Part shown: in pieces, positions 15,034 through 51,388 of the stretch
Position numbering within the stretch: the first letter of the stretch is position 1
Layout: every line of letters begins with the position of its first letter
Source: Streptomyces sp. CG1
GTDB lineage: Bacteria; Actinomycetota; Actinomycetes; Streptomycetales; Streptomycetaceae
Length of the DNA stretch: 64,000 nucleotides
Direction: 5' to 3'
Assembly: GCF_041080625.1 (NCBI RefSeq)
Contig: NZ_CP163518.1
Coordinates: 7,867,501-7,931,500 of the forward strand
Notes under the pieces: model-generated
What the model was told of the DNA's origin: nothing
The model's input: the letters and a program-made list of their open reading frames with translations, nothing else
Databases searched by the model: none
Made by a program: the position numbers and the translations under genes

Positions 15034-15237
15034 TCAGGAGCGCTGCCAGCTGTGCGGCGGGTGGAAGGTGTGCGGACGCCACGAGGGGGCGCCGGGGGCG
15101 GCCGGTTCGGCGCCGGCGCCCGCGAGCGCGCCACGGCTGAGCAGCAGCACCGCGACGGCGGCCAGCTCCTCCTCGGTGGCCTCGCCCTTCTCGACACGGA
15201 TGGGGGGAGGGAAGGGGGCAGTGGGGGACACGGACAT
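15034..15237 (-). CDS. Acyl-CoA carboxylase epsilon subunit
   Basis: A 67-residue protein (MSVSPTAPFPPPIRVEKGEA, TEEELAAVAVLLLSRG, C-terminal WRPHTFHPPHSW). The RVEKG...EELAA core and the terminal W-x-P...SW pattern are those of AccE/PccE epsilon subunits that stabilise and activate actinobacterial acyl-CoA carboxylases. It is 26 nt downstream of the beta subunit and surely co-transcribed. Together they supply malonyl-CoA (or methylmalonyl-CoA). The SARP-type box upstream of the beta gene ties this supply to the cluster. Confidence 0.85.
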   Translation of the reverse strand: MSVSPTAPFPPPIRVEKGEATEEELAAVAVLLLSRGALAGAGAEPAAPGAPSWRPHTFHPPHSWQRS

Positions 15238-15263
15238 GGGGACCTCCGTCACCGAGGGGGCTG

Positions 15264-16808
15264 TCACTGCGGGGGATTGCCGTGCTTCCGGGCCGGGCGC
15301 TCGGCGTGCTTGGACTGCAGCATCGCCAGGGACTTCGCCAGGACCTCGCGGGTCTCGGCCGGATCGATCACGTCGTCGACCAGGCCGCGTTCGGCCGCGT
15401 AGTACGGGTGCATCAGCTCGGACTTGTACTCCTTGACCAGCTCCGCCCGCACGGCCTCGGGATCCTCGGCATCGGCGATCCGCCGGCGGAAGATGACGTT
15501 CGCGGCACCTTCCGCGCCCATCACCGCGATCTCGTTGGTCGGCCAGGCGTAGGTGAGGTCGGCGCCGATCGACCGGGAGTCCATGACGATGTAGGCACCT
15601 CCGTACGCCTTGCGCAGGATCAGCGAGATACGCGGCACGGTCGCGTCGCAGTAGGCGTACAGCAGCTTCGCGCCGTGCCGGATGATCCCGCCGTGCTCCT
15701 GGCCGACGCCGGGCAGGAAGCCGGGTACGTCGAGCAGGGTGACGATCGGCACGCTGAACGCGTCGCACAGCTGCACGAACCGGGCCGCCTTCTCGGACGC
15801 CTCGATGTCCAGCACACCGGCCAGGGTCTGCGGCTGGTTGGCGACGATCCCGACGACATGCCCGTCGAGGCGGGCCAGCGCGCAGATGATGTTCCGCGCC
15901 CAGCGCTGATGGACCTCCAGGTACTCGCCGTCGTCGACGATCTCCTCGATGACCTCGGCCATGTCGTACGGCTGGTTGCCGTCGACGGGCACCAGGTCTG
16001 CGAGGGCCGCGCAGCGCCGGCCGGCCGGGTCGTCGCAGGGCACCGTGGGCGGGTTCTCGCGGTTGTTGCGGGGGAGGAGTGAGAGCAGATAGCGGACCTC
16101 CTCCAGGCAGGTCTCCTCGTCGTCGTACGCGAAGTGGCACACCCCGCTGGTCTCGGCGTGCACGTCGGCGCCGCCCAGGCCGTTCTGTGAGATCTCCTCA
16201 CCGGTGACCGCCTTGACCACGTCCGGGCCGGTGATGAACATCTGGGACGTCTCACGGACCATGAAGACGAAGTCCGTCAGGGCGGGCGAGTACGCGGCGC
16301 CGCCCGCGCACGGGCCGAGCATCACGCTGATCTGCGGGATGACGCCGGACGCCTTGGTGTTGCGCTGGAAGATGCCGCCGTACCCGGCGAGCGCCGAGAC
16401 GCCCTCCTGGATACGGGCGCCCGCGCCGTCGTTCAGGGAGACCAGGGGCGCGCCGGCTGCGATGGCCATGTCCATGATCTTGTGGATCTTGGTGGCGTGG
16501 GCCTCGCCCAGCGCACCGCCGAAGATCCGGAAGTCATGGGCGTACACGAAGACCGTGCGGCCCTCGACCGTGCCCCAGCCGGTGACCACCCCGTCGGTGT
16601 ACGGCCGCTTCGCCTCCAGGCCGAAACCGGTCGCCCGGTGCCGGCGCAGCGGCTCGACCTCGTGGAAGGAGCCCTCGTCGAGGAGCAGCCCGATCCGCTC
16701 GCGCACGGTGAGCTTGCCCTTGGCCTTCTGGGCGGCGGTCGCCTTCTCGCTGGGGCCGGCGAGCACGCTCTCGCGTATGCCGGCCAGTTCCTCGACGCGG
16801 GACCTCAT
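15264..16808 (-). CDS. Acyl-CoA carboxylase carboxyltransferase (beta) subunit
   Basis: 514 residues, typical for AccB/PccB. The acyl-CoA oxyanion motif is SLNDGAGARIQEGVSALAGYG, the second site is GPCAGGAAYSPA, and the biotin-side carboxyltransferase half has DVPGFLPGVGQEHGGIIRHG and LRKAYGGAYIVM. The conserved Asp-type specificity position lies in the C-terminal half, but I cannot decide acetyl versus propionyl preference by eye. The biotinylated alpha subunit must be encoded elsewhere. The leftward promoter carries an 11-bp-spaced SARP repeat (16854-16897), so this copy is a dedicated malonyl-CoA supply for the adjacent FAS/PKS genes. It is taken as the left edge of the BGC with the epsilon subunit. 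Confidence 0.92.
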   Translation of the reverse strand: MRSRVEELAGIRESVLAGPSEKATAAQKAKGKLTVRERIGLLLDEGSFHEVEPLRRHRATGFGLEAKRPYTDGVVTGWGTVEGRTVFVYAHDFRIFGGALGEAHATKIHKIMDMAIAAGAPLVSLNDGAGARIQEGVSALAGYGGIFQRNTKASGVIPQISVMLGPCAGGAAYSPALTDFVFMVRETSQMFITGPDVVKAVTGEEISQNGLGGADVHAETSGVCHFAYDDEETCLEEVRYLLSLLPRNNRENPPTVPCDDPAGRRCAALADLVPVDGNQPYDMAEVIEEIVDDGEYLEVHQRWARNIICALARLDGHVVGIVANQPQTLAGVLDIEASEKAARFVQLCDAFSVPIVTLLDVPGFLPGVGQEHGGIIRHGAKLLYAYCDATVPRISLILRKAYGGAYIVMDSRSIGADLTYAWPTNEIAVMGAEGAANVIFRRRIADAEDPEAVRAELVKEYKSELMHPYYAAERGLVDDVIDPAETREVLAKSLAMLQSKHAERPARKHGNPPQ

Positions 16809-16853
16809 GTCTCCCCCTGCTGACGTGAAGTGACGGAACCCACTTGTCCGTTG

Positions 16854-16897
16854 AGCCTGCCAAGGCGGACTGACCGTGTGCTGACGGGCCGCTTACG
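16854..16897 (-). promoter_or_regulatory. SARP-type box 1 (accB-accE operon)
   Basis: On the minus strand: degenerate CGTAAGC (16897-16891), CGTCAGC (16886-16880) and GGTCAGT (16875-16869), spaced 11 bp; then 9 bp; then -10-like CAGGCT (16859-16854). The expected start is about 16847, giving a leader near 40 nt with AGGGGGAG before ATG 16808. The architecture is identical to the other six boxes. Confidence 0.75.
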
Positions 16898-16947: not shown

Positions 16948-17733
16948 TCAGGCGAGTTGCAGAAGGCGGTCGCCGGTGAGGGCCGGGTCGTGGGAGAGGA
17001 TCGCGCTCTCGACCCGGCGCAGGGCCGGTGAGGGCTCGATGCCGAGTTCGTCGTCGAGGCGGCGGCGCATCCGGCGGAAGACGTCGAGGGCGTCGGCCTG
17101 CCGCCCCGCGCCGTACAGCGCGATCATCAGCTGCTCGCAGAACCGCTCCCGTAACGGGTGGTTGGTGTGCGCCTCGGCCAGCTCCGCCAGCATGGCCGCG
17201 GGCCGGCCGAGCCGCAGCTCGGCGTCGAAGCGCAGCTCCATCGCCCGCATCCGGTGCTCCTCGTAGCGGGCACCCGCCAGCTCGCACAGGGTCCCGCCGG
17301 GAAAACCGCCGAAGACCGGCCCGCGCCACAGCGCCAGCGCGTCCCCGAGCACCCGGGCGGTGCGTCCGGCCTCGTCCGGTGAGGCCGCCTCCGCCTGCCG
17401 TACGGCCCGGACGAACTCGGCGGCGTCCAGCTCCCCTTCGCCCAGGCCGAGCCGGTAGCCCGCCGGATGGATCGTCACCCGGGACACCGGCCGGTCCGGC
17501 TCCAGCGCCCGCAGCCTGCGGCGCAGCCGGCTGATGTGTGCCTGCAGGGCGTTGGCCTGGTTGTCGGGTGCGGCCTCGCCCCACATCTCCTCGGCCAGGC
17601 TCTCCCCGGAGACCGGCCGGCCCTCGCTGATCAGCAGTGTCTGCACCAGAATGCGCTGCAGATCACCGGGCACGTCCGCCGGACCCGTTTCGGTGCGTAT
17701 CTGCAGCGGCCCGAGAACGGAGAACCTCAGCAT
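16948..17733 (-). CDS. SARP-family pathway-specific activator (VlmI-like)
   Basis: A 261-residue SARP: an OmpR-type winged helix (residues about 1-95, FSVLGPLQIRTE, NALQAHISRLRRRLR, IHPAGYRLGL) followed by the bacterial transcriptional activation domain BTAD (LDAAEFVRAVRQAE to DELGIEPSPALRRVE). There is no ATPase domain, so it is a small SARP. ATG 17733 follows AAGGGGG; an upstream GTG-type extension of 7 residues is less likely. Leu194 is encoded by TTA (17152-17154), which makes translation depend on the bldA tRNA. Its own promoter carries a SARP-type box, which suggests autoregulation. Confidence 0.92.
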   Translation of the reverse strand: MLRFSVLGPLQIRTETGPADVPGDLQRILVQTLLISEGRPVSGESLAEEMWGEAAPDNQANALQAHISRLRRRLRALEPDRPVSRVTIHPAGYRLGLGEGELDAAEFVRAVRQAEAASPDEAGRTARVLGDALALWRGPVFGGFPGGTLCELAGARYEEHRMRAMELRFDAELRLGRPAAMLAELAEAHTNHPLRERFCEQLMIALYGAGRQADALDVFRRMRRRLDDELGIEPSPALRRVESAILSHDPALTGDRLLQLA

Positions 17734-17814
17734 CTCTTTCCCCCTTGACGACAATTCCTCGACGGTTTTTCCGAAGTGGTGCCGCGGTGGCGGACACTAT
17801 GCCCGAACGCGCCA

Positions 17815-18005: not shown

Positions 18006-18094
18006 AGCCAATGAATTCCCGGCGGCCCTTTTCCCGGACAACCTCTCGATGCTGTACTCCCTTCGACGGAAACGCTCCGGAAAGGGGTACGGCA

Positions 18095-19102
18095 ATGACC
18101 GCGATCACCACCGAAACCGGTACCGGCCACCGGGTTCTCGATGCGATACGCAGGCACACCGCGAGCGAGAACCCGAGTTCGTTCCTGGCGCTCAACAGCG
18201 GAAACAGCGTCTTCACCGTGCCGGGCGCGGACGGTGTCGTCGTCCACCGCCGCACCGGCCGCTGGGCCGTGCAGTTCGGCGGTCCCTTCGCCGCCGAGGA
18301 GGACTACGACACCCTCCTCGACGCGTTCCGGCGCCATGTCCGGGACGAGGGCCTGGGCCTCGTCGGCGTCCAGCTGCAGCGCACCGACGCCGAGCGCTAC
18401 GCCCGGCGCGGCTTCACGGTCAACCAGGTCGGCGCCTCCTGGGCGGTGAGCCTCGCCGAGTTCACGCTGCGCGGCAGCAGGTTCATGCAGCTGCGCAACA
18501 AGATCTCCCGCGCCCACCGCAACGGCCTGCGGATCCAGGAGGCGGACGCGGCCGGCGTCGGCGAGGCCATCGCCGCCATCGACGCGGCCTGGCTCGGCTC
18601 CAAGGGCGGCGCCCAGCAACTGGAGTTCCTCGTCGGCCAGATCGGCGGCCGGGCACAGGAACACCGCCGGCTGTTCATCGGAACCATCGACGGCGCCCCG
18701 GTCGCCTACATCTCGTACTCACCGGTCCATGGCAGCCGGGCCGGCTGGATGCACGACCTCAGCCGCCGCATCCCCGAGGGCTCCCCGGGGCTGATGGAGG
18801 CCATCAACGCGCACGCCATCGAGGTGTTCCGGGCCGAGGGCGTCGCCTGGCTGCACTTCGGGTTCACGCCGTTCACCGGCTTGGACGCCGGCCATGAACT
18901 CGACGGCCACAGCCCCGCGTTCCAGTGGCTGATGCACGCCCTGTGGGCCGAGGGCGCGGCGCTGTACCCGGCGCAGACCCAGCTGTCGTACAAGCAGAAA
19001 TGGGCGCCCGACGTGCTCATCCCCGAGTACGTCGCCTTCGACGGGCCGCAGGCCTCGCTGCCCGGGTTCGCGCACATCTTCCGCGCCTGCAACGCCTTCT
19101 GA
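18095..19102 (+). CDS. MprF-type aminoacyl-tRNA-dependent transferase (VlmA-like)
   Basis: 335 residues of the DUF2156/lysylphosphatidylglycerol-synthetase C-terminal domain (two tandem GNAT folds), without the flippase membrane part. Visible: GRWAVQFGGPFA, RRGFTVNQVGASWAV, KISRAHRNGLR and RSAGWMHDLSRR-like core, plus HFGFTPF and QTQLSYKQKWAP near the end. In valanimycin biosynthesis VlmA, of this family, moves serine from seryl-tRNA onto an alkylhydroxylamine. The second SerRS and the N-hydroxylase in this cluster make the same reaction likely here. The start is ATG 18095 with GAAAGGGG upstream. It is the first gene right of the SARP, divergent from it. The alternative is a plain lipid aminoacylase. 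Confidence 0.85.
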   Translation: MTAITTETGTGHRVLDAIRRHTASENPSSFLALNSGNSVFTVPGADGVVVHRRTGRWAVQFGGPFAAEEDYDTLLDAFRRHVRDEGLGLVGVQLQRTDAERYARRGFTVNQVGASWAVSLAEFTLRGSRFMQLRNKISRAHRNGLRIQEADAAGVGEAIAAIDAAWLGSKGGAQQLEFLVGQIGGRAQEHRRLFIGTIDGAPVAYISYSPVHGSRAGWMHDLSRRIPEGSPGLMEAINAHAIEVFRAEGVAWLHFGFTPFTGLDAGHELDGHSPAFQWLMHALWAEGAALYPAQTQLSYKQKWAPDVLIPEYVAFDGPQASLPGFAHIFRACNAF

Positions 19103-19558: not shown

Positions 19559-20683
19559 ATGCAGCGTCCGCACACACAGATGGCCGGGGACATCCGGACG
19601 GCCGGGGCTCCGGCCGCCGAGGCCGTCCCGCGCCCCGGCGCCTCGGCGACCTTCGCCGAACTGCTCAAACGCGTCAAAGCCGAGGGCCTGCTCGACCTGG
19701 ACCCGCGCTACTACGTGGGCAAGCTCGCCCTCAACACCACCCTGCTGCTGCTCGGGTTCGCCGCCTTCTTCGAGCTGGGCGACACCTGGTGGCAGCTGGT
19801 CACGGCCCTGTGGATGGGCCTGTGCGGCGGCCAGTCGGCGTTCATGTGGCACGACGCCGGTCACAAGGCGATGTTCCGCAGCAAGAAGGCCGCCTCCGCG
19901 GTCGGCTATGCGCACGCCAACCTGGTCAACGGGGTCAGCTACGGCTGGTGGGTCAACCACCACAACCGCCACCACTCCAACCCCAACCACCTGGACATGG
20001 ACCCGGACATCGGCCGGCGCACCGCCATCTTCGACATCAAGCAGTACCCGACCCGCAAGGGCACCCAGAAGATCGTCGTGCGTTACCAGAGCGTGCTGTT
20101 CTTCGTGCTGCTGGTGCTCGAAGGCTTCAAGATGCTGAAGACGGCCGTCCTGTCGATCACCCAGGGCAGGACCAGGCGGCCCGTGCTGGAGACGTTCCTG
20201 ATCCTGCTGCGCGCCGCCGTCTACCTCGCCTGCGTCTTCACCGTCCTGTCCCCGGCACTCGCGGTCGCCTTCATCGTCGTCCAGCACGCCGCCCTCGGCG
20301 TCTACTTCGGCATGATCTTCGCCCCGAACCACAAGGGCATGCAGATCCGCGACGGTGCGGAGGAGACCCTGGACTGGCTGGAGCGCCAGGTCCTCACCTC
20401 CCGCAACATCCGGCCCAGCCTGCTGATCGACTTCCTCTACGGCGGCCTCAACTACCAGGTGGAACACCATCTGTTCCCGGCCATGCCGCAGAAGAACCTG
20501 CCGCGCGCCCGCGAACTGACCCGCGCCTACTGCGCCGAACGCGGGGTGCCGTACCACGAGGTCGGGTTCTGGGCCTCGTACCGCGAGGTCGCCACCTACC
20601 TCCACGAGGTCAGCGCGCCCGTGCGGCGCGGTGACGTGGAGGAGGAGATCCGGCGCCGGGCCGAGGCCGCCCGAGCCGCCTGA
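19559..20683 (+). CDS. Membrane fatty-acid (acyl-CoA/acyl-lipid) desaturase
   Basis: A 374-residue integral-membrane diiron desaturase. The three histidine boxes are intact: HDAGH (in FMWHDAGHKAMF), HNRHH (in WWVNHHNRHHSNP) and QVEHH (in LNYQVEHHLFP). Hydrophobic segments lie at about residues 57-90 and 200-255. It inserts a double bond into an acyl chain using ferredoxin or cytochrome electrons. A 7Fe ferredoxin is encoded two genes downstream, and a MFS gene and an enoyl reductase share the operon. It probably desaturates the lipid tail of the cluster product. Start ATG 19559 has AAGGAGAG just upstream. Confidence 0.92.
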   Translation: MQRPHTQMAGDIRTAGAPAAEAVPRPGASATFAELLKRVKAEGLLDLDPRYYVGKLALNTTLLLLGFAAFFELGDTWWQLVTALWMGLCGGQSAFMWHDAGHKAMFRSKKAASAVGYAHANLVNGVSYGWWVNHHNRHHSNPNHLDMDPDIGRRTAIFDIKQYPTRKGTQKIVVRYQSVLFFVLLVLEGFKMLKTAVLSITQGRTRRPVLETFLILLRAAVYLACVFTVLSPALAVAFIVVQHAALGVYFGMIFAPNHKGMQIRDGAEETLDWLERQVLTSRNIRPSLLIDFLYGGLNYQVEHHLFPAMPQKNLPRARELTRAYCAERGVPYHEVGFWASYREVATYLHEVSAPVRRGDVEEEIRRRAEAARAA

Positions 20684-20724
20684 GTCCCCGCGTGACGTCC
20701 GCCTGCCCCAAGGAGTCAGCCACC

Positions 20725-22173
20725 GTGTCCCAGACCACCGCGGCGGCGGGCGGTCTCACCGCTCCCGCCGCGATCGGCGCCCGCCTGGACCGGATGCCGA
20801 TCACCCCGCTGCACCGCAGACTCACCGCGGTCATCGGTGTCGGCCTGTTCTTCGACACCTTCGAGAACAACCTGTCCGGCACCGTCGGCAAGGTGCTCCA
20901 GAACGACTTCGCGTTCGGCGCGACCTCGCTCAAGCTCGTGCTGGCCGCCGCGTTCCTCGGCCAGTTCACCGGTTCCCTGACGCTCGGCCGGATCGCCGAC
21001 CGGTACGGCCGGCGCCGGGCCTTCCTCGTCAACCTCGGTGTCTACTCGGTCTGTTCGCTGCTCGGTGCCCTCTCGCCGAACGCCGCCTGGCTGATCGTGA
21101 CCCGCTTTCTCGCCGGTGCCGGCATAGGTGCCGAACAGGCGCTGTCCGACTGCTACCTGGCCGACGTGCTGCCCGCGGGCAAGCGGGGCCGGTTCATCGC
21201 CTGGGCCTACACCCTCGCCTTCTGCGGAGTGCCCGCGGTCGGCTTCGCCGCGCTCTGGCTGGTGCCGCTGGCCCCGCTTGGTGTGGCCGGCTGGCGCTGG
21301 CTGTTCGTGCTGGGCGCGGCCGGCTCCGCCGTGGTGTGGCTGCTGCGGCGGGGGCTGATCGAGTCGCCGCGGTGGCTGGCGGCGAACGGCTGCGCCGCTG
21401 CGGCCGACAGGCTGGTGTCGCGCATGGAGGCCGAGGCAGCCGACCGTGGCTTGTCGTTCGCCGTTCCGGCGCAAGTGCCGGGATCCGCCGACGGTCGTCT
21501 GTCGCGCCGTCGTGGCTGGTCGCGCCCACCCGACGGCAGCCGCACATCAGACACGGCCCCGCGCCCCTTCGGGACGCAGCCACGGTTGCGGGACGTCCTC
21601 GGGCCGGGCCTGCGCCGCCGTACCCTCGTCCTCTGGCTCTTCTGCGTGCTCTCGGTCGTCGGCTACTACGGCTTCGGCACACTCGCCCCGCAGATCGTCG
21701 CCGCCAAGGGTTACGGCATCGTCGCCGGCCTCGGCTTCACCGCGCTGTCCTTCCTCGGCTACCCGGTGGGCTCCGCCCTCGCGCTGCCGGTCGTGGACCG
21801 CGTCGAACGCCGCACCCTGATCGCCCTGTCGTCGGCGGCGATGGTGGCGGCCGGACTCGGCTTCGCCTGCGCGGACTCCGCGGCCCTGATCGTGATCTGC
21901 GGTTTCGCCTACACCCTCTGCAGCAACGTCTTCTCCAGCGTCTCGCACGTGTACCTGTCCGAGCAGTACCCGACCACGATCCGGGCCACCGCCGCCGGCG
22001 CCGCCTACTCGCTGTCCAAACTCAGCGCCGCCGCACTGCCGTTCGTCCTGCTGCCGGTCCTGGACGCGCACGGCGCCGGCGCCCTGTTCGCCGTCATCGC
22101 CGCAGCCATGGCCGTGCTCGCACTCACCGTGCTGACCCTGGGCGAGCGCACCACCGGCACCCCGGTCGACTGA
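20725..22173 (+). CDS. MFS transporter (sugar-porter-like) with repeat-encoded loop insert
   Basis: A 482-residue, about 12-TM MFS protein. ITPLHRRLTAVIGVGLFFDTFE starts TM1, GRIADRYGRRRAFLVNLG is the loop 2-3 signature and DRVERRTLI the loop 8-9 equivalent. It probably exports a cluster intermediate or product, or imports a precursor. GTG 20725 follows AAGGAG; an ATG at 20692 adds 11 residues. The central loop (about residues 262-281) is translated from a 60-bp dispersed repeat (21509-21568) also found between genes at 46841. The lengthened loop should be tolerated because it is cytoplasmic. Confidence 0.85.
   Translation: MSQTTAAAGGLTAPAAIGARLDRMPITPLHRRLTAVIGVGLFFDTFENNLSGTVGKVLQNDFAFGATSLKLVLAAAFLGQFTGSLTLGRIADRYGRRRAFLVNLGVYSVCSLLGALSPNAAWLIVTRFLAGAGIGAEQALSDCYLADVLPAGKRGRFIAWAYTLAFCGVPAVGFAALWLVPLAPLGVAGWRWLFVLGAAGSAVVWLLRRGLIESPRWLAANGCAAAADRLVSRMEAEAADRGLSFAVPAQVPGSADGRLSRRRGWSRPPDGSRTSDTAPRPFGTQPRLRDVLGPGLRRRTLVLWLFCVLSVVGYYGFGTLAPQIVAAKGYGIVAGLGFTALSFLGYPVGSALALPVVDRVERRTLIALSSAAMVAAGLGFACADSAALIVICGFAYTLCSNVFSSVSHVYLSEQYPTTIRATAAGAAYSLSKLSAAALPFVLLPVLDAHGAGALFAVIAAAMAVLALTVLTLGERTTGTPVD
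21509..21568 (-). repeat. Dispersed 60-bp repeat, copy inside MFS coding sequence
   Basis: The reverse complement matches 46841-46900 at 56 of 60 positions by eye. It contains GTGTCTGATGTGCGGCT and TGGGCGCGACCAGCCAC. The reading frame passes through and gives RRRGWSRPPDGSRTSDTAPR in the TM6-TM7 loop. Related elements ending in CGCGACCAGCCAC are scattered through Streptomyces intergenic DNA. Confidence 0.8.
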
Positions 22174-22201
22174 ACTCACCTCTCAAGCAAAGGAGTTGAC
22201 C

Positions 22202-35374: not shown

Positions 35375-35419
35375 CTTCAGCCTTTCGGATATGGCGTGTG
35401 GATTTCTTGAAGCAAGCCG

Positions 35420-35463: not shown

Positions 35464-35498
35464 CAGCCAAAAGGTCGGCCGGCCGGGCGGTCCCGGTC

Positions 35499-35531
35499 TG
35501 TCAGTGGGGTGTCAGCCTGCGTTGCTTGCAT
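35499..35531 (+). promoter_or_regulatory. SARP-type box 5 (ACP-PKS operon), possibly leaderless
   Basis: TGTCAGT (35499-35505) and TGTCAGC (35510-35516), 11 bp apart; 9 bp; -10-like TTGCAT (35526-35531). Transcription would start near 35538, at or next to the ATG at 35539. It forms a divergent pair with box 4. Confidence 0.7.
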
Positions 35532-35538
35532 GAGGCGC

Positions 35539-35838: not shown

Positions 35839-35849
35839 GGAGTCGCTCC

Positions 35850-43279: not shown

Positions 43280-44278
43280 ATGAGCGCAGAGCCCCTGCGT
43301 ATCGGGTTCCAGCTGCCCACCCGTGAACAGGCGATCAAGGGCAGCTACGCGGCCGCCCCCCTGCTCGACCTCGCCCGCCAGGCCGAAGCTCTCGGCTTCG
43401 ACTCCCTGTGGGCCGGAGACTCCCTCACCGCCCGCCCCCGCCTGGACCCCCTGGTCATCCTGTCGGCCGCAGCGGCAGCCACCCGCCGCATCACCGTCGG
43501 CACGGCCGCCCTCACCCCCGCCCTGCGTCACCCCCTCATCGGGGCCAACATGATCGCGAGCCTCAGCCATGTCGCCGCCGACAGGCTGATCCTGGGCCTC
43601 GGCTCCGGCTTCCCCATGGCCGAGACGGAAGAGGAGTTCGCCTCGGTCGGCGCCTCCTTCCAGGGCCGGGTCGGCCGTCTGGACGAGATCACGGCGCTGT
43701 GGCGCACCGCCTGGCGCTCGGGGCAGGACGGCGAACCCACCGAGTTCGAGGGAAAGTTCTGGCAGGCCGAACACCTGGACCGGCTCCCCGCACCGGCGGT
43801 GCCCGGCGGCCCCCCGCTCTGGCTGGCCGGCAGCGACACCCCCAAGGTCCTCGCCCGCGCGGCGGCCCGCTACGACGGCTGGCTCCCCTTCCTCCCGGAC
43901 GTCGACGCCTACGCCCGCGCCCGCCGCCGTATCGACGAACTCGCCGCCGAGGCGGGCCGCACGGTCACCCCCGCGCTGTACGCCACGGTCACCGTGAACA
44001 GCAGCGAACCGGCCGCCAAGGCCGAACTGGAGCACTACATCAGCCACTACTACGGCCGCTCCCTGGAGCAGATGAGCAGCATCCAGGCCTACGCCTGGGG
44101 CAGCGCCGAGAAGTGCGCCGAGTGGCTCGGCGGCTACGTCCGGGCCGGCGCCCGGCATCTGGTCGTACGGATCGGATCGCTCGAACCCGAGTCCCAGTTG
44201 AAGGAGATCGCCGAGGTGCTGCTGCCCGCGGTACGCGCCCTCGGCCCGTCCACCACCGTTGGGAGCAAACAACCGTGA
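43280..44278 (+). CDS. LLM-class flavin-dependent oxidoreductase
   Basis: 332 residues of the luciferase-like monooxygenase/F420 reductase superfamily TIM barrel: LARQAEALGFDSLWAGDSL, RITVGTAALTPALRHPLIGA, LILGLGSGFP and PLWLAGSDTPKVLARAA. It may use F420 or FMNH2. It could oxidise the chain beside the KR-generated hydroxyl or act on the azoxy product. AAAAGG precedes ATG 43280; an alternative ATG 43238 overlaps the ligase stop. Overlaps the thioesterase by 4 nt. Confidence 0.86.
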   Translation: MSAEPLRIGFQLPTREQAIKGSYAAAPLLDLARQAEALGFDSLWAGDSLTARPRLDPLVILSAAAAATRRITVGTAALTPALRHPLIGANMIASLSHVAADRLILGLGSGFPMAETEEEFASVGASFQGRVGRLDEITALWRTAWRSGQDGEPTEFEGKFWQAEHLDRLPAPAVPGGPPLWLAGSDTPKVLARAAARYDGWLPFLPDVDAYARARRRIDELAAEAGRTVTPALYATVTVNSSEPAAKAELEHYISHYYGRSLEQMSSIQAYAWGSAEKCAEWLGGYVRAGARHLVVRIGSLEPESQLKEIAEVLLPAVRALGPSTTVGSKQP

Positions 44279-45099
44279 CCACCGCCATCGGCACCCTGGG
44301 CAGCCAGATGTCCAGCGAGGGGCACTGGTTCCACCCCGTGGAGCCCTCGCCCGACGCCTCGATCAGGCTGTTCCTGCTGCCCCACGCCGGCAGCGGCGCC
44401 ATCATCTACCGCGACTGGGAACGGCTGCTGCCGCCGGACATCGCCCCGCAGGCCGTCACCCTGCCCGGCCGCCACAACCGCCGCGAGGAGCAGACGTACG
44501 AGAACTTCTGGCCGCTGCTCGACGCCCTGCACGAGGCGGTGCTGAACGACCTGGACGAGCGGCCGTTCGCCCTCTTCGGACACTGCCTCGGCGCCCAGCT
44601 GGCGTTCCGGCTGGCGATCCGCATGGAAGAGGAGGGCGGCCCCGCGCCGCTGATGGCCGGCATGTCCGGCTGGTCGCCGGTGGGCTTCTTCAAGCCGACC
44701 GAGGAGCAGAGCCGGATGCCTGAACCCGAACTCATCGAATGGATCAAGAAGCTGGGATCCTTCCCGGCCGAGGTCTACGACAACCCCGAGATGCTCGCAC
44801 TCGTCGTGCCCGCACTCCGCTCCGACCTCAGGGTCGCCGGGGACTACGACGACGACGGCGCCGGTGTCACCTGCCCGCTCGCCTCCTACGGCGGCCGCAG
44901 CGACCCGCTTCAGGAGGCCCCGGACGCCATGACCCACTGGGCCGGCCGCAGCCCCGCCTACCTGGGCCACAGCGAGTACGAGGGCGGCCACTTCTACATC
45001 GACACGCACGCCGCGGCCGTCACCGCGCACTTCGCGCACCGGTTGCAGCGACTGGCAGCCGCCAGGGCCTGTCCGGCGGATCAGGCCGCGGGAATGTGA
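44275..45099 (+). CDS. Type II thioesterase
   Basis: A 274-residue alpha/beta-hydrolase: FLLPHAGSGAIIYRDWERLLP, PGRHNRREEQ, nucleophile in FGHCLGAQLAF (here Cys in the GHC-x-G elbow instead of the usual Ser), and His in GGHFYID. Type II thioesterases remove aberrant acyl groups from carrier proteins or release short products. The nucleophile elbow reading GHCLG is unusual, since most family members have GHSLG/GHSMG. It is the last gene of the PKS operon. Confidence 0.85.
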   Translation: MTTAIGTLGSQMSSEGHWFHPVEPSPDASIRLFLLPHAGSGAIIYRDWERLLPPDIAPQAVTLPGRHNRREEQTYENFWPLLDALHEAVLNDLDERPFALFGHCLGAQLAFRLAIRMEEEGGPAPLMAGMSGWSPVGFFKPTEEQSRMPEPELIEWIKKLGSFPAEVYDNPEMLALVVPALRSDLRVAGDYDDDGAGVTCPLASYGGRSDPLQEAPDAMTHWAGRSPAYLGHSEYEGGHFYIDTHAAAVTAHFAHRLQRLAAARACPADQAAGM

Positions 45100-45122: not shown

Positions 45123-45148
45123 GCGGGGGCCGGCGTGTTGGCCCCCGC
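45123..45148 (+). terminator. Terminator of the ACP-PKS operon
   Basis: GCGGGGGCC (45123-45131), 8-nt loop, GGCCCCCGC (45140-45148), 24 nt after the thioesterase stop and upstream of box 6. It separates the PKS operon from the transporter operon. Confidence 0.7.
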
Positions 45149-45203
45149 GTCCGCGACAGCATCCGCCGGACAGGCCCTCGGTGCGCTGACCGCCCAGGGC
45201 CGG

Positions 45204-45236
45204 TGTCAGCGCCGTGTCAGCGGGGCGCGGGACAGT
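45204..45236 (+). promoter_or_regulatory. SARP-type box 6 (exporter-P450)
   Basis: TGTCAGC (45204-45210) and TGTCAGC (45215-45221), 11 bp apart; 9 bp; -10-like GACAGT (45231-45236). The two repeats and the bases between them (GCCG) are the same as in box 7. Expected start near 45243, about 100 nt before the MFS ATG. Confidence 0.75.
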
Positions 45237-45344
45237 GCCCGGAGGACTGTCGTACCGAGTGCCGTCCCGTGCCCTTCGCGCGCCTCGCGGACACCTGCGG
45301 CACGCCTCCCACCAGCACGAAACGACCTAGGAGGGTCGTCCATC

Positions 45345-46814
45345 ATGACCACCGAAGCGGAACTGACCGGCAGCGCGGCCTCGGCCGTACCGCCCCCGGA
45401 CATCGAGGAGGCCGAAGGCAAGCCCGCCTGGGGTGCGCTCTGGGTCGTGCTGGCCGGCCTGTTCATCACCAACGTCGACTTCTTCATCGTCAACGTGGCC
45501 ATCCCGTCGCTCCAGCGGAACATGCACGCGACCAGTGCCGAGATCCAGCTGGTCGCCGCCACCTTCAACATCGGCCTGTCCGCCATGCTCATCACCGGCG
45601 GCCGGCTCGGCGACCTCTACGGCCGCCGGAAGGTCTTCTCCATCGGCCTGGCCCTGTTCACGCTCGCGTCGCTGGCCTGCGGCATCGCCCCCGACATGGC
45701 CGAGCTGATCGTGGCACGCGCGGTGCAGGGCGCATCGGCCGCCCTCGTCATCCCGCAGGTCCTCGGCATCCTGACCACGGCCTACGCGGGCAAGGCGCGG
45801 GTCGCCGCGTTCAACGCCTACGGCATCACGCTGGGCGCCTCGGCCGTCTTCGGCCAGCTGATCGGCGGCCTGCTCATCAAGGCCGACGTCTTCGGCTGGG
45901 ACTGGCGGACCATCTTCCTGATCAACGCCCCGATCGGCGCCGTGGTCCTGCTGCTCACGCCGAAGGTGGTGCCCGAGTCCCGGGCCGAGGGCCACACCGG
46001 CCTCGACTGGACCGGCGTGATCCTGGTGACCGCCGGCCTCACGGCCATCGTGCTGCCGCTGGTCCAGGGCCGCGAGCAGGGCTGGCCGGCCTGGACCTGG
46101 GAGTGCCTGGTGGCGGCGGTACCGCTGCTGGCCGCGTTCTGGTGGACCCAGCGCCGCAAGGCCGCCCGCGACAAGTCGCCGCTGGTCCACCCGAGCCTGT
46201 TCGAGGACCGCGCGTTCGGCGTGGGCGTCGTCTCGCTGCTGGTGTTCTTCGCCGCGATGGCCTCCTTCTTCCTGGTCCTCGCGCTGTATCTGCAGGAGGG
46301 CCGCGGACTGTCCGCGCTCCAGTCGGGTCTGCTGTTCATCCCGCTCGGCCTCGGCTTCTTCATCGGCTCCGCACAGGCACCGAAGGCCGCGGCCAAGCTG
46401 GGCAAGCAGGTCCTGACCGCCGGCGCGCTGATCCAGGCGGTCGGCAACCTCGCGCTCGCCGCCACCGCGTGGGAGCTGGGCGGCAGCGGCACCGTCGCCT
46501 GGTGCATCCCGGCCATGGTCCTCTCCGGCTTCGGCATGGGCTTCGTGGTCGCCCCGCTCGCGTCGCTGGTCCTCGAGGGAGTCGCCCCGCACCACGCGGC
46601 CGCGGCGTCCGGTGTCTTCTCCACCGCCCAGGAGATGGGCAACGCCGTCGGCATCGCGGCCATCGGCGTCGTCTTCTTCGGCGTCGCCGGCCACCAGGTC
46701 ACCGCCCACTCCTACGCCCACGCCTTCGGCGCGGGCCTGCTGGTGCAGGCGGGCATCTGTGTGGTGGTGGCGCTGCTGGTCCAGCTGCTGCCGAGGAAGG
46801 CGAAGACTTCCTGA
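45345..46814 (+). CDS. DHA2-family (14-TM) drug exporter (VlmF-like role)
   Basis: A 489-residue MFS transporter of the 14-TM drug:H+ antiporter type: FITNVDFFIVNVAIPSLQR (TM1), GGRLGDLYGRRKVFSIG (loop 2-3), the motif C-type GQLIGGLLI, and LVLEGVAPHHAAAASGVFST near the end. It should export and give self-resistance to the cluster product, as VlmF does for valanimycin. AGGAGG precedes ATG 45345. Confidence 0.9.
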   Translation: MTTEAELTGSAASAVPPPDIEEAEGKPAWGALWVVLAGLFITNVDFFIVNVAIPSLQRNMHATSAEIQLVAATFNIGLSAMLITGGRLGDLYGRRKVFSIGLALFTLASLACGIAPDMAELIVARAVQGASAALVIPQVLGILTTAYAGKARVAAFNAYGITLGASAVFGQLIGGLLIKADVFGWDWRTIFLINAPIGAVVLLLTPKVVPESRAEGHTGLDWTGVILVTAGLTAIVLPLVQGREQGWPAWTWECLVAAVPLLAAFWWTQRRKAARDKSPLVHPSLFEDRAFGVGVVSLLVFFAAMASFFLVLALYLQEGRGLSALQSGLLFIPLGLGFFIGSAQAPKAAAKLGKQVLTAGALIQAVGNLALAATAWELGGSGTVAWCIPAMVLSGFGMGFVVAPLASLVLEGVAPHHAAAASGVFSTAQEMGNAVGIAAIGVVFFGVAGHQVTAHSYAHAFGAGLLVQAGICVVVALLVQLLPRKAKTS

Positions 46815-46840
46815 GCCTTTGAGAAGGGGGCAACTGTCAT

Positions 46841-46900
46841 AGGGGCGCGGGGCCGTGTCTGATGTGCGGCTACCGCCGCGTGGGCGCGACCAGCCACAAC
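46841..46900 (+). repeat. Dispersed 60-bp repeat, intergenic copy
   Basis: AGGGGCGCGGGGCCGTGTCT at 46841-46860, ending CAGCCACAAC at 46900. It matches the inverted copy at 21509-21568 in 56 of 60 positions. It lies between the exporter and the P450, 26 nt after the exporter stop. Similarity continues weakly to about 46909. Confidence 0.8.
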
Positions 46901-47021
46901 AGACCCGCACCAGCCCCACAACCCGAACCCCTGCGGCGAATAGCGCACAACCCACCGGACGGGCACGCGAAAAGAACCCCGCGTGCCCGTCCGCCATGCA
47001 TCCACGAAAACGGAGGCCCAC

Positions 47022-48203
47022 ATGCCACAACTCCCCACCTGGCCCATGCCCCGCTCCTGCCCCTACGCACCCCCGGACGCCTACGCGGAGCTGAGAGACC
47101 AGCCCCCGCTGAAAGTACGGATCCGCGGCGGCGAAGCCTGGCTGGTCACCCGGCACGCCGATGTACGCCAGGTCCTCAACGACCCCCGCTTCAGCGCCGA
47201 CGACCAGCAGCCCGGCTTCCCGATAAGGATCCAGCTGCCCCCCGAACCCGGTGTGATGTCCTTCAGCCGCATGGACGACCCGGAGCACGGCCGGCTGCGC
47301 CGCATGGCGATGACCGAGTTCACCGCACGCCGCACCCGCGCCCTGCGCTCCGAGGTCGAACTCCTCGTGACGCAACTGCTGGACGAACTGGAGACGTGCC
47401 CCCGCCCGGTCGACCTGGTCGCGCGCTTCGCCGTCCGGCTCCCCGCCCTGGTGATCGCCCGGATGCTCGGCGTGCCGGAGGAGGACGAGGCGGACTTCAC
47501 CGAGCAGAGCCGGGTGATCCTGTCCCAGGAGGCCGGCCCCGAGGAGACGTACGCGGCCTTCCTCACGATGTCGCGGTTCCTGGACCGGCTCGCCGCACAG
47601 CGCACCGCCGAGCCGCAGGACGACCTGATCAGCCGGCTGGCCACCCGCTACGTGGCGAGCGGCGAGCTGAGCCACGAGGAGCTCGTGGCCATGGCCCGGT
47701 TCATCCTCGTCGCCGGGCACGAGACCACGGCCCACCAGATCAGCCTCAGCGTCCTCGGTCTGCTGCGCGACCCGGACCAGCTGGCCGAACTCCGAGCCGA
47801 CCCGGCCCTGTTCAGGCCCGCGGTCGAGGAACTGCTGCGCTACTGGTCCATCTCGCAGGACAACCAGGTACGCGCCGCCGTGGACGACGTCGGGCTGAGC
47901 GGCGCGCGGATCCGCAAGGGGGACGGCGTGATCGTCGCGATTCCCGCCGCCAACCACGACGAGTCGGTCTACCCCGGAGCGGGCCGCCTGGACATCCACC
48001 GCAACGCCTCCGGTCACCTCGCCTTCGGCTTCGGTGCGCACCTCTGCCCCGGCGCCTCGCTGGCCCGCCTGGAGCTGGAGGTGTGCCTGAGCGCCCTCTT
48101 CGCCCGCTTTCCCACGCTGCGCCTGGCCGTGCCGCCGGAGGAGGTCCGCTTCCGCAGGAACACGATCGTGTACGGCCTGGAGGAGCTGCCGGTCACCTGG
48201 TGA
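47022..48203 (+). CDS. Cytochrome P450
   Basis: A 393-residue soluble bacterial P450. I-helix AGHETTAHQ, ExxR-type EELLRYW, and haem loop FGFGAHLCPGASLAR with the ligand Cys. All key residues are present. It probably hydroxylates or desaturates the lipid or azoxy product. ATG 47022 follows CGGAGG; a GTG/ATG at 46983 would add 13 residues. No ferredoxin is adjacent, but the 7Fe ferredoxin of the cluster is available. Confidence 0.92.
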   Translation: MPQLPTWPMPRSCPYAPPDAYAELRDQPPLKVRIRGGEAWLVTRHADVRQVLNDPRFSADDQQPGFPIRIQLPPEPGVMSFSRMDDPEHGRLRRMAMTEFTARRTRALRSEVELLVTQLLDELETCPRPVDLVARFAVRLPALVIARMLGVPEEDEADFTEQSRVILSQEAGPEETYAAFLTMSRFLDRLAAQRTAEPQDDLISRLATRYVASGELSHEELVAMARFILVAGHETTAHQISLSVLGLLRDPDQLAELRADPALFRPAVEELLRYWSISQDNQVRAAVDDVGLSGARIRKGDGVIVAIPAANHDESVYPGAGRLDIHRNASGHLAFGFGAHLCPGASLARLELEVCLSALFARFPTLRLAVPPEEVRFRRNTIVYGLEELPVTW

Positions 48204-48339: not shown

Positions 48340-49302
48340 ATGGCAGACACCGCAGCCCCGGCTCCCACCCGGGCCCTCGTCCTGGCCAACCCGGCCTCCG
48401 GCAGCCACTCACCCCAACTGGTCGAAGACGTACGGCAGTTGTGCGCCGCCTGCCTGGAGCACACCGAGGTGCACCGCACCACCGGCCCGGGCGACGCCAC
48501 GGTCGCGGTGCGCCGGGCCCTGCAACGGCCCGCCGGGGCGTCCCCCGGGGCGCCCGACCTGATCGTCGTCATCGGCGGGGACGGCACCGTCCGGGAGGCC
48601 GTACAGGGTCTGGTGCCCGTCACCGGGAACGCCACCCTCGCGGTGGTGCCCGGCGGCACCGGCAACTCCGGCTACAAGATGCTGTGGGGCGACCGCCCCT
48701 GGAGCGAGTCCCTGAAGGCGATCCTGACCGACTACGGCATCGGCGGCAGCGCCCGGCTGCGCCGCCTGGACCTGGCCCGCCTGGCCGAGACCCGCAACCA
48801 TGTGTATCTGGGCGCCTGTTCGGGCGTGATCGCCGACGCGCTGCTCACCGCCCGGGACCTGCCGCTGACCGGGCGGGAGCGCTACGCCCGCGCCTTCGCC
48901 GACACAGCCGCCGGCTACCCGCCGTACCCGGGCCGGGTCACGGTCGACGGCCGCGTGGTGCACGAGGGCCCCACGGTCCTCGCCAACGTCGGCGGCGGAC
49001 GCTACCGCGGAGGCCGGTTCCTCGTCCTGCCCGACTCGCTGCTCGACGACGGACTGCTCGACGTCTGCGTGATCGGCGGTGCCGTCCCGGCGGCCGACGT
49101 ACCCGAACTGACCCTCACCGCACGGCACATGGACCATCCGGCGACCGTCTACGCCCGCGGGCGCACGATCACCGTCGAGCGCACCGACGGCAGCCGGCTC
49201 CCGCTGGAACACGACGGCGAGTACCAGCACGGCATCGGCGCCACCGTCACCTTCGAGGTGCTCCCCGGAGCCCTGCCGGTGTGGGCGCCGGCCACCCCCT
49301 GA
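48340..49302 (+). CDS. Diacylglycerol-kinase-like kinase (VlmJ-like)
   Basis: 320 residues of the DAGK/sphingosine kinase catalytic fold: LVLANPASGS, the ATP motif VVIGGDGTVREAV, VVPGGTGNSGYK, and the C-terminal LEHDGEYQHG. In valanimycin biosynthesis the homologue VlmJ phosphorylates the serine-derived hydroxyl of valanimycin hydrate so VlmK can eliminate phosphate. Here it is followed by a VlmK-like gene in the same operon. Membrane association was not predicted. AAGGAG precedes ATG 48340. Confidence 0.88.
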   Translation: MADTAAPAPTRALVLANPASGSHSPQLVEDVRQLCAACLEHTEVHRTTGPGDATVAVRRALQRPAGASPGAPDLIVVIGGDGTVREAVQGLVPVTGNATLAVVPGGTGNSGYKMLWGDRPWSESLKAILTDYGIGGSARLRRLDLARLAETRNHVYLGACSGVIADALLTARDLPLTGRERYARAFADTAAGYPPYPGRVTVDGRVVHEGPTVLANVGGGRYRGGRFLVLPDSLLDDGLLDVCVIGGAVPAADVPELTLTARHMDHPATVYARGRTITVERTDGSRLPLEHDGEYQHGIGATVTFEVLPGALPVWAPATP

Positions 49303-49353: not shown

Positions 49354-49722
49354 ATGAGCGACCTGACCACCACCGTCACCCGCTACCTCGACATCTGGAA
49401 CGAGGCCGACGCCGACAAGCGCGCCGCGGCCATCGCCGAGCTGTTCACCGCCGACGCCCCGTACATCGACCCGCTCGTCGCGGTCGAGGGCCACGAGGGC
49501 TTCGGGGCCGTGGTGGCCGGCGCCCGCGACCAGTTCAAGGGCCTCGGCTTCGAACTGCACGGCACCGTCGACGCCCACCACCGGCAGGCCCGCTTCCAGT
49601 GGGGCCTGGTGACCGAGCCGGGCGCCGAGCCGGTCGCCATCGGCTTCGACGTCCTCGTCACCGACGAGCACGGGAAGATCAAGGCCGTCTACGGCTTCCT
49701 GGACAAGGTCCCGGCCGCGTAA
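49354..49722 (+). CDS. SnoaL/NTF2-like small protein
   Basis: A 122-residue NTF2-fold protein of the SnoaL-like type: VTRYLDIWNEADADKRAAAIAELF, DPLVAVEGHEGFG, RFQWGLVTEPGAEP and VYGFLDK. Such proteins act as cyclases, isomerases or hydroxylases in polyketide pathways, or just bind ligands. It lies between the kinase and dehydratase, so it may assist the final elimination or handle an unstable intermediate. GAGGAG precedes ATG 49354. Confidence 0.8.
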   Translation: MSDLTTTVTRYLDIWNEADADKRAAAIAELFTADAPYIDPLVAVEGHEGFGAVVAGARDQFKGLGFELHGTVDAHHRQARFQWGLVTEPGAEPVAIGFDVLVTDEHGKIKAVYGFLDKVPAA

Positions 49723-49736
49723 CACCGCTCACGCAC

Positions 49737-49771
49737 CCGCGGGAGCACCAGAGGCGACGGTGCTCCCGCGG
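49737..49771 (+). terminator. Intra-operon hairpin
   Basis: CCGCGGGAGCACC (49737-49749), 9-nt loop, GGTGCTCCCGCGG (49759-49771): a 13-bp perfect stem, 15 nt after the SnoaL-like stop. It probably reduces or ends transcription before the dehydratase gene, or stabilises the upstream message. Confidence 0.65.
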
Positions 49772-49819
49772 CTGTGTTCCCCCTGGTTGTCCAGCCGCAC
49801 GCACGGAAGGTGTACCGCC

Positions 49820-51388
49820 ATGACCGCCGTCCTCGCGGAGAGCGTCGCCCGGGCACTGTGCGCCGGCTGGGCCGAGCAGGCCGGCACCCCGCCCCGGGCC
49901 GCCCGCGGCCGCACCCCCGCCGACACCCCGCTGCGGGAACTCTCGCACTGGGCCGCGACCCTGCGCCCGCAGGACATCCCGTGCCGGGTGCTGAAGCTCG
50001 CCGCGAGCCAGGTGCTGTCGCAGATCGCCTCCATCCGCGCCGGTCTCCAACACCCGCTCGGCAGAAGGCTGGTGGCCGCGTTCGGGCACCCCATGCAGCG
50101 CGATCCACGGCAGGCGGCCGGCGTCTTCGCCGCGCTCGGCTCCTGGCTCAACCTGGACGACACCGCGTACGCCGGACACCTGTCGAACTCCACGGTCGCC
50201 GTCCCGCTCGCCTTCGCCTACGCCCGTCAGCTGGACGGGCTCTCACTGCTCACCGCCGTGGTCGCGGCCAACGAGTGCGCGGCCCGGATCACCGCCTCCG
50301 CGACCCTTGGACCCCTGCGCGGCCAGAGCGCCGTACACACCCATCTGGCCGGTGCGGTGGCCGGCCGGCTGCACTGCGACCGGGCCCCGGCGACCCTGTT
50401 CGAGAACGCCTTCGGGCTGGCCTTCGCGATGCCCAACTGGCCTCTGATGCGCGCCTTTCTGGCCAGCGACGCCCGGCTGTTCAACACCTTCACCCCGGTG
50501 CGCACCGCGATGGACGCCTGCGACGCCGCGTACGCCGGGCTGCGCGGGGCGCCGGACATCATGGAGCACAGCGACGGCTTCCTGGCCCGCTTCGCCACCG
50601 TGCCGCTGCCGCAGGCGGTGGCCAAGGGGCTCGGCCGCCGCTGGCACACGGACACCCTGTCCTTCAAGATGCACCCGGGCGGCCCCGGCATCGACGCGGC
50701 CGTCGACTGCGCGGCCGAGATCCACAGGGAACTCGGTGCCGTACAGCCGCGGGACGTGGCCGAAGTAGTCGTCGAGGCGTCCCTGTACACGCTGTTCGCG
50801 GGGGAGCGGGCCGCCCGGTACGTCACCGGCCCCGGCTCCCCGCTGGGCGCGCTGGTCCTGGACGTGCCCTACCCGGTCGCCACCACCCTGCTCACCGGCG
50901 AGTTCTCGGTGGACGACTTCTCCTCCCCGTGCCTGGACGACCCGGACCGCTGGGCCCTGGCCAAGCGGATACGCCTGGAGCACGACACCGAGATGACCCG
51001 TGAACTCTTCCTCTCCGACGCGCCGTTCGGCGAGGCGGTGCGCGAGGCGGGGGAGCGGGCCGTGCCGTGGCTGCGCGGCTTCGGCGGCGACGAACTCGTG
51101 GACCTGGTGGGCGCGGTCCGGGCCGACGGCCGCGACTTCTCCCGCTCCACCAAGGCGACCGGCGCCCGGGTCACCGTACGCCTCACGGACGGCCGTACGC
51201 TCTCGCGCACCCGCCTGATCCCGATCGGCGCCGCAGGCCCCGACACCCGCGCGGGCCACGCCGACCTGGTCCGAGAGAAGTTCCTCTCGGTGGGCGGCGC
51301 CCAGGAGGTGGCCGACACGGTGGACAGGCTGCACCGGATGCGTCCCAGAGCGGTACGCCGCTGGATAGAGACAGCATTCCTGGACTGA
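49820..51388 (+). CDS. MmgE/PrpD-family dehydratase (VlmK-like)
   Basis: A 522-residue MmgE/PrpD protein: DDTAYAGHLSNSTVAVPLAFAYA, FENAFGLAFAMPNWPLMRA, and SFKMHPGGPGIDAAVDCAAEI. The family includes 2-methylcitrate dehydratase and VlmK, which eliminates phosphate from valanimycin hydrate phosphate to give the dehydro-product. It ends the BGC; its stop is 9 nt from the dasR stop. GAAGG precedes ATG 49820. Confidence 0.88.
   Translation: MTAVLAESVARALCAGWAEQAGTPPRAARGRTPADTPLRELSHWAATLRPQDIPCRVLKLAASQVLSQIASIRAGLQHPLGRRLVAAFGHPMQRDPRQAAGVFAALGSWLNLDDTAYAGHLSNSTVAVPLAFAYARQLDGLSLLTAVVAANECAARITASATLGPLRGQSAVHTHLAGAVAGRLHCDRAPATLFENAFGLAFAMPNWPLMRAFLASDARLFNTFTPVRTAMDACDAAYAGLRGAPDIMEHSDGFLARFATVPLPQAVAKGLGRRWHTDTLSFKMHPGGPGIDAAVDCAAEIHRELGAVQPRDVAEVVVEASLYTLFAGERAARYVTGPGSPLGALVLDVPYPVATTLLTGEFSVDDFSSPCLDDPDRWALAKRIRLEHDTEMTRELFLSDAPFGEAVREAGERAVPWLRGFGGDELVDLVGAVRADGRDFSRSTKATGARVTVRLTDGRTLSRTRLIPIGAAGPDTRAGHADLVREKFLSVGGAQEVADTVDRLHRMRPRAVRRWIETAFLD

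Follow-up and report, generated by a model that had tools for sequence, protein, structure and literature searches.

A 64,000-nt stretch of DNA from Streptomyces sp. CG1, analysed whole and referred to here as the window (contig NZ_CP163518.1, positions 7867501 to 7931500, inside an 11.1-Mb genome; G000:C1 in our numbering of genomes, contigs, and loci [G, C, and L]), carries a block of 28 genes that runs for ~36 kb from an acyl-CoA carboxylase carboxyltransferase subunit (window position 15264) to an MmgE/PrpD protein (51388). Judged from its sequence, the block quite probably makes a serine-derived azoxy lipid by a fatty-amine route, with dehydration of the serine side and extension by a polyketide synthase (PKS) as less certain later steps.

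Open reading frames (ORFs) were called by third-position GC, and the window ORFs were assigned to families by Pfam/NCBIfam profile search. An earlier note on this DNA had set the cluster at 15034 to 51388; the end holds, and the start moves to the carboxyltransferase gene (15264 to 16808), 15034 being the end of an overlapping ORF. All families that it had named were recovered, namely, SARP, MprF-type transferase, seryl-tRNA synthetase (SerRS), acyl-CoA dehydrogenase (ACAD) fold, flavin reductase, ferritin-like protein, small membrane protein, DAGK-type kinase, MmgE/PrpD, ketoacyl-ACP synthases III and II (KASIII and KASII), acyl carrier protein (ACP), FabI, desaturase, carboxyltransferase, one-module PKS, aldehyde dehydrogenase (ALDH), and class-III aminotransferase. 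The list was right but incomplete, having missed an acyl-CoA ligase, a luciferase-like enzyme (LLM), a thioesterase, SRPBCC and SnoaL proteins, a P450, a ferredoxin, a permease, and two MFS transporters. It had also reported no valine decarboxylase, and no amino acid decarboxylase family was matched in the ORFs scanned; the same scan returned no methyltransferase family (including PF04072).

Azoxy core and fatty-amine branch

The VlmO-like membrane protein, a predicted hydrazine synthetase (30183 to 30713, minus strand; 176 amino acids), has D51, H82, H110, and D114 at positions identical to those of VlmO, in which these residues are reported as essential and likely iron binding (PMC11705231). 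Among the 120 homologues listed (of 1,152 found), D51, H82, and H110 occurred in all and D114 in 119, with one gap; an alignment of the window protein with 44 of those homologues agreed on the four residues. Its AlphaFold model (mean pLDDT, 69.6) has four long helices, with the four residues in helices 2 to 4; from a model of that pLDDT, Foldseek returned no solved relative of the fold (best E value, 2.3). The ferritin-like diiron protein, a predicted azoxy-forming oxygenase (28655 to 29644, minus; EARH and EIRH motifs), matched PDB 6d9f, “Putative VlmB homolog” (E value, 1.4e-119), and a VlmR-like flavin reductase is encoded at 29641 to 30186 (minus; PF01613, 1e-30). The block therefore holds a VlmO-type protein with the four essential residues, a VlmB-type diiron protein, and a VlmR-type reductase.

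It also holds a VlmA-type transferase close to a VlmH-type N-hydroxylase candidate. The putative seryl-tRNA-dependent transferase (18011 to 19102, plus) matched PF09924 (4e-67), the Pfam model applied to VlmA in PMC9379638; it is free-standing and matched the MprF model in the C-terminal part only, at 80 bits versus a 600-bit cutoff. A start at 18095, with a purine-rich stretch upstream, looks likelier than one at 18011. The ACAD-fold protein (32573 to 33715, minus) matched PF02770/PF02771 weakly, under the gathering cutoffs, and lay far under the cutoff of every acyl-CoA-dehydrogenase-type NCBIfam model matched; its nearest solved chains are 3m9v and 4kcf (“FAD-dependent oxidoreductase”), and its assignment to VlmH draws on these weak family matches, the solved chains, and gene context. 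The SerRS (VlmL-like; 23348 to 24625, minus; PF00587 and PF02403, with solved SerRS matches) is 40% and 43% identical to two other SerRS genes in the same genome. These lie at G000:C1:5267524-5268771 (L211) and 4317627-4318859 (L212); since the genome has two SerRS genes beyond the cluster copy, a second SerRS-dependent pathway elsewhere in it is possible. A core closest to housekeeping families, the outcome named beforehand as adverse, was not found: the divergent SerRS, the ACAD-fold protein under its cutoffs, the VlmB match to 6d9f, and the invariant VlmO residues led us to reject a housekeeping origin.

The predicted source of the amine is a set of fatty acid and amine genes, comprising KASII (FabF-like; 26165 to 27385, minus; PF00109/PF02801; NF005589, 448 bits versus a cutoff of 387), a stand-alone ACP (27385 to 27615, minus; PF00550), KASIII (FabH-like; 27651 to 28658, minus; PF08541/PF08545; TIGR00747, over cutoff), a FabI-type enoyl-ACP reductase (22528 to 23295, plus; NF005908, 411 bits versus a cutoff of 299), an ALDH-superfamily protein predicted to reduce an acyl thioester to an aldehyde (33743 to 35470, minus; PF00171, 3e-61), and a class-III aminotransferase predicted to convert the aldehyde to an amine (31220 to 32524, minus; PF00202, 9e-81). 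The FabI is a second copy in the genome, 66% identical to the other, and might work with the small fatty acid synthase or confer self-resistance; the cluster has no called gene of the FabG or FabZ type.

An SRPBCC/START-fold protein (30735 to 31217, minus; PF03364) accompanies the fatty-amine branch. Two sets of VlmO loci were compared, one of 40 and one of 79 (L091 to L169, flanks of ≤10 kb), together L051 to L169 (n = 119). SRPBCC, aminotransferase, and ALDH all lay close to VlmO in 29/40 loci of the first set and in 69 of the 78 loci of the second with a long enough VlmO match, and the trio was kept in many loci where VlmO identity was down to 50 to 60%. Anywhere in the locus, SRPBCC and aminotransferase were both present in 36/40 loci of the first set and both absent from 4/40; the second set had both in 77/79, with SRPBCC only in L160 and neither in L169, both cut by a contig start. 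Altogether, SRPBCC occurred with the aminotransferase in 113 of the 119 loci and was missing from four aminotransferase-free loci (L072 and L074 to L076), none cut at VlmO, which had no ALDH or KAS match either. One of these, L074 (G169), has a pyridoxal phosphate (PLP) decarboxylase (PF00282), as expected of a valanimycin-like amine source. The SRPBCC model (pLDDT, 90) resembles TTHA0849 and ZhuI by Foldseek, which makes binding of a hydrophobic ligand probable; across 38 aligned sequences, positions of Trp, Glu, Gln, and Asp were conserved. As a separate observation, near the azoxy core and PLP decarboxylase of L074 (1716 to 8138) lie genes for a Haem_oxygenas_2 iron enzyme and a 2-oxoglutarate-Fe protein and one resembling a nitrite/sulfite reductase, and the azoxy chemistry there is likely distinct.

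Dehydration pair and PKS cassette

At the right end of the block lie a VlmJ-like kinase of the DAGK/YegS type (48340 to 49302, plus; PF00781, 2e-21; PF19279, 2e-17) and a VlmK-like MmgE/PrpD protein predicted to eliminate phosphate (49760 to 51388, plus; PF03972 and PF19305), the latter with no match among PDB sequences at an E value of ≤0.001. This MmgE subfamily (E value, ≤1e-40) gave 41 matches in 40 of 392 Streptomyces genomes. VlmO, present in 82 of the 392, occurs in every one of these 40 (the window genome counting in both figures); 38 of the 41 matches lay within 45 kb of VlmO, and in the other three cases the two genes were on different contigs. Common descent raises the apparent significance of this co-occurrence. 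Gene orders differ widely (G115, G358, G374, G086, and G208), which supports a functional tie of the kinase/eliminase pair to azoxy formation.

The PKS (35526 to 41519, plus; start likely near 35850) has a single module, KS-AT-(degenerate DH)-(degenerate ER)-KR-ACP by Pfam and motifs. It shows ACSSS in the KS, GHSIG and HAFH in the AT, GGLGGLG with Ser and Tyr in the KR, and LGLDSL in the ACP. We take HAFH to denote malonyl specificity, His to be the catalytic residue of the DH, and Lys-Ser-Tyr to be the KR set. In a comparison of 21 PKSs, the DH catalytic His position was Leu in the window PKS and in 9 of 10 close relatives and His in G388, and no NADPH-binding motif of an ER was found in the window protein. 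Because the DH His and the ER motif are absent and the KR motifs are kept, the likeliest output, as read from these motifs, would be a single malonyl extension giving a β-keto or β-hydroxy acyl product. Downstream are an acyl-CoA/ACP ligase (41640 to 43241, plus; PF00501; NF004837, 585 bits, over cutoff), the LLM, a luciferase-like flavin/F420 oxidoreductase (43280 to 44278, plus; PF00296, 1e-58; TIGR03619, 129 bits, under cutoff), and a type II-like thioesterase (44308 to 45099, plus; PF00975, 8e-31). The three solved chains nearest to the LLM protein are F420-dependent dehydrogenases.

Across 85 VlmO loci, scored at thresholds of 1e-40, 1e-60, and 1e-120 that differed by protein (MmgE, LLM, and ligase), 22 had all three, 14 had MmgE only, 5 had the ligase only, and 41 had none. 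One further locus had MmgE and ligase (G073, with an LLM on another contig), and two had LLM and ligase (G229 and G163, with MmgE on other contigs); in G213, one of the 14 MmgE-only loci, LLM and ligase are on a different contig. All 24 LLM genes within 45 kb of VlmO came with a ligase, 22 of them with MmgE on the same contig and those of two genomes with MmgE elsewhere. The fatty-amine loci of G391, G208, G364, G123, and G142 showed only weak KAS-like matches to the type I PKS over 56 kb; conversely, in G169 and G362 the azoxy core has no fatty-amine genes, yet a PKS-ligase-thioesterase cassette lies ~20 kb away. By elimination, because there are PKS-free amine loci and amine-free cores near PKS cassettes, the PKS is more likely to extend the serine-derived half than to build the amine.

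Conservation and remaining genes of the block

The block was compared by tblastn of the window proteins with ten relatives of the same genus, namely, G260 and the nine genomes, out of 392, whose VlmO was closest. Gene order was the same in all ten, 25 of the 28 genes were present in 10/10, and identities were ~68 to 100%, except for one MFS protein at 50%. The same order recurring in ten same-genus genomes is beyond chance, and the cluster is real, conserved, and probably functional. The amino acid permease (24618 to 26081, minus; PF13520) had no match in G260. The MFS exporter MFS2 (45135 to 46814, plus; PF07690) and the P450 (46983 to 48203, plus; PF00067) had no match in G003 or G260, and G282 lacked the P450 and had the MFS at only 50%. 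Since the pair (45135 to 48203) is found as two copies in G033 and G365 and as none in G003 and G260, it is a variable tailoring/export module.

The block limits were placed at the carboxyltransferase and MmgE genes because G260 and the more distant G093, which keep carboxyltransferase to MmgE, match neither flanking gene. Downstream of MmgE, a GntR gene was found in six of the seven relatives with sequence past MmgE (in G033, several kilobases further), G260 lacking it; in G327, MmgE was matched at the edge of the stretch compared. Upstream of the carboxyltransferase, a DUF6299 ORF was found in 8/10 relatives. The carboxyltransferase itself (15264 to 16808, minus; PF01039, 1e-201) is 90 to 94% identical in nine of the ten relatives, is truncated by a contig end in the tenth (G146), and has homologues near two azoxy loci of different arrangement (L131 and L086); it likely supplies malonyl-CoA.

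The other genes are a SARP-type activator (16948 to 17754, minus; PF03704 BTAD, 4e-47; PF00486), presumably the counterpart of VlmI in the valanimycin cluster, a membrane fatty-acid-desaturase-like protein, the predicted alkene former (19559 to 20683, plus; PF00487, 2e-44; HDAGH and HHNRHH boxes), an MFS transporter (20692 to 22173, plus; PF07690), a 4Fe-4S ferredoxin-like protein (22196 to 22531, plus; PF00037), and a SnoaL-like protein (49354 to 49722, plus; PF12680). Beyond the block, window positions 10749 to 13640 encode a 963-amino-acid protein with an AMP-binding enzyme as its C-terminal half.

Proposed pathway and its alternatives

Roles were assigned by homology to enzymes characterised elsewhere. 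A fatty acyl chain would be assembled on the ACP; reduction to an aldehyde and conversion to an amine would follow, and the amine would be N-hydroxylated and then esterified with serine from seryl-tRNA; the VlmO-type protein likely rearranges the serine ester to a hydrazine, and the VlmB-type protein likely oxidises this to the azoxy group. The probable cargo of the START-fold protein is the lipophilic amine or hydroxylamine. For the later steps, which are less certain than the early ones, we propose that the serine hydroxyl may be phosphorylated and eliminated by the VlmJ/VlmK-like pair, that the acyl ligase may activate the serine-derived carboxyl for a single extension with malonyl-CoA by the PKS and release by the thioesterase, that the luciferase-like enzyme may adjust the redox state of the serine-derived half, and that the desaturase and ferredoxin may make an alkenyl-azoxy double bond, as proposed for Ady9 of azodyrecin. 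A vinyl end product is possible. Homology bears out the earlier note on the fatty amine, its N-hydroxylation, the transfer of serine from seryl-tRNA, the formation of N-N and azoxy groups by VlmO/VlmB-type proteins, and the kinase/eliminase pair. Its placing of the PKS in the amine pathway has lost ground to ALDH/aminotransferase sets without a PKS and cassettes near amine-free cores, the one-module PKS itself being present as described.

The families of VlmA, VlmL/SerRS, VlmH, VlmR, VlmO, VlmB, VlmJ, and VlmK are common to the window and to valanimycin (vlm, Streptomyces viridifaciens), as compared through literature descriptions, the VlmJ kinase and VlmK eliminase at the Pfam-family level only. 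Valanimycin takes its amine, isobutylamine, from an amino acid (valine) decarboxylase, whereas the window has the predicted ACP, KAS, ALDH, and aminotransferase source and, beyond valanimycin, the desaturase, PKS, ligase, LLM, thioesterase, and START-fold protein. With azodyrecin (ady/azd; Streptomyces sp. RM72, A1C6, and S. mirabilis P8-A2), the window shares the logic of ALDH, aminotransferase, VlmH/R, VlmA, VlmO, VlmB, and desaturase (PMC9379638). The route proposed there runs from the Ady2 dehydrogenase, giving the aldehyde, through the Ady4 aminotransferase, N-hydroxylation by Ady3/Ady10, and Ady7 with alanyl-tRNA to Ady6/Ady8, the Ady9 desaturase, and the Ady1 methyl ester (PMC9379638). 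Alanyl-tRNA is proposed to come from the cellular pool, with no aminoacyl-tRNA synthetase in the cluster, and Ady1 is a methyltransferase (PMC9379638), whereas the window has a SerRS, a VlmJ/VlmK-like pair, and a PKS. Identity with azodyrecin was rejected on the presence of the SerRS and the lack of PF04072 or any other methyltransferase family in the scanned ORFs.

Several observations weigh against the pathway as drawn. The PKS keeps apparent KR residues and may release a β-hydroxy acid, with no match to such a compound among published products. Absences in the locus counts are soft, with 3 to 5 candidates per genome scored for MmgE, LLM, and ligase. In G169 and G362, other genes fill the ~17 to 20 kb between cassette and core, which may be two clusters, and their PKSs were seen in part, the C-terminal part of that of G362 lying at the end of the stretch. 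LLM-thioesterase-ligase sets occur in L216 and L217 with no azoxy core gene matched in 17.6 to 20 kb. In the ligase tree (25 rows), LLM-free G380, G169, and G362 form the sister group of 18 LLM-containing rows (84/80 support); G086, the two nonazoxy LLM loci, and long-branched G073 fall outside. This fits the LLM being an old partner of the PKS cassette that was lost once. A strict rule that the LLM requires dehydration was rejected, given the sets without an azoxy core and a ligase tree that a single LLM loss explains. Because of the same two findings, the link between LLM and dehydration is weak. The two unlinked sets (L216:3300-11800, G327:C1; L217:200-11800, G163:C49) lie beside an FAD oxidoreductase and a SARP, that of L217 also with a PKS match and P450s nearby, and probably belong to another natural-product pathway; L215 has one more unlinked LLM, accompanied by a thioesterase.

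If instead the PKS, ligase, and thioesterase helped to build the lipid amine, the serine half would only be phosphorylated and eliminated, giving a dehydroalanine-type azoxy compound. An acyl ligase with a PKS is a common route of fatty acid extension, the PKS gene lies beside the ALDH and amine genes in divergent orientation, and the kinase/eliminase pair is in the cluster. Yet fatty-amine loci occur without the cassette, cassettes lie near azoxy cores without fatty-amine genes, and in other arrangements the cassette is away from the ALDH (G358, G329, and G374), so we hold this to be unlikely. The kinase and MmgE/PrpD pair would also suit phosphorylation with decarboxylative elimination, turning the seryl residue into an N-vinyl azoxy group carried by a long chain as in jietacin, one derivative of which has a vinyl-diazene oxide attached to an oxo-alkyl chain (PMC9862604). 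Loss of the serine carboxyl would leave the PKS-ligase-thioesterase cassette unexplained, and cassette-free clusters would fit such chemistry better; no jietacin cluster was found in the open-licence literature. We consider this outcome quite improbable here.

The product may already be known, the block being the KA57-A cluster of S. rochei 7434AN4 or a close congener. That cluster (azx) is described as azoxyalkene plus type I PKS and spans 36,010 bp (SRO_1819 to SRO_1850; PMC6662830). Its VlmO (SRO_1835) and VlmB (SRO_1837) are one gene apart, as in the window; the likeness is one of size, category, and three gene positions. By locus-tag numbers, an indicative comparison, VlmA (SRO_1850) is 13 genes from VlmB, versus 10 in the window, and no S. 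rochei locus was among the 79 loci L091 to L169. We regard identity with KA57-A as possible but not likely. As for a decayed or unrelated assembly of housekeeping-like genes without N-N chemistry, FabI, KASII, ACP, and SerRS do look housekeeping and the DH and ER of the PKS are degenerate, but a block kept in ten species, invariant VlmO active-site residues, and the VlmB match make it very improbable. The serine-derived azoxy lipid, extended on its serine half, thus remains the preferred reading.

Coupling to a fatty amine has already been proposed for azodyrecin, an azoxyalkene plus type I PKS cluster of similar size (KA57-A) is known, and KASIII, VlmJ/K, and SerRS near VlmA are already in print (PMC9379638). 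In that survey by Choirunnisa et al. (2022), 179 VlmA/VlmH pairs were found in 3,146 actinobacterial genomes, VlmJ/K pairs, SerRS, and KASIII were recorded in some VlmA neighbourhoods, and most VlmA groups had no linked product; the KA57-A study is cited there for primary and secondary alcohols. No published product for exactly this gene set was found in the open-licence literature. New here are the differences between species in how the amine, dehydration, and PKS cassettes are ordered and combined, the likely site of the PKS, and the START-fold partner. More tentatively, the cluster may be a combinatorial azoxy-lipid factory, in which, once the N-N bond is made, the PKS would elongate the serine carboxyl, phosphorylation, elimination, and F420/flavin reduction by the LLM would rebuild the serine side chain, the START-fold carrier would feed the lipid hydroxylamine to the membrane hydrazine synthetase, and cassettes would be swapped between Streptomyces species to diversify products.

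Few aliphatic azoxy natural products are tied to genes, and the enzymatic basis for diversifying their amino acid-derived end has been elusive, save for the exo-olefin of valanimycin (PMC9379638). A 28-gene set conserved in ten further species is a tractable system for the extension, dehydration, and reduction of azoxy acids, and the proposed pathway predicts which deletion would change which half of the molecule.

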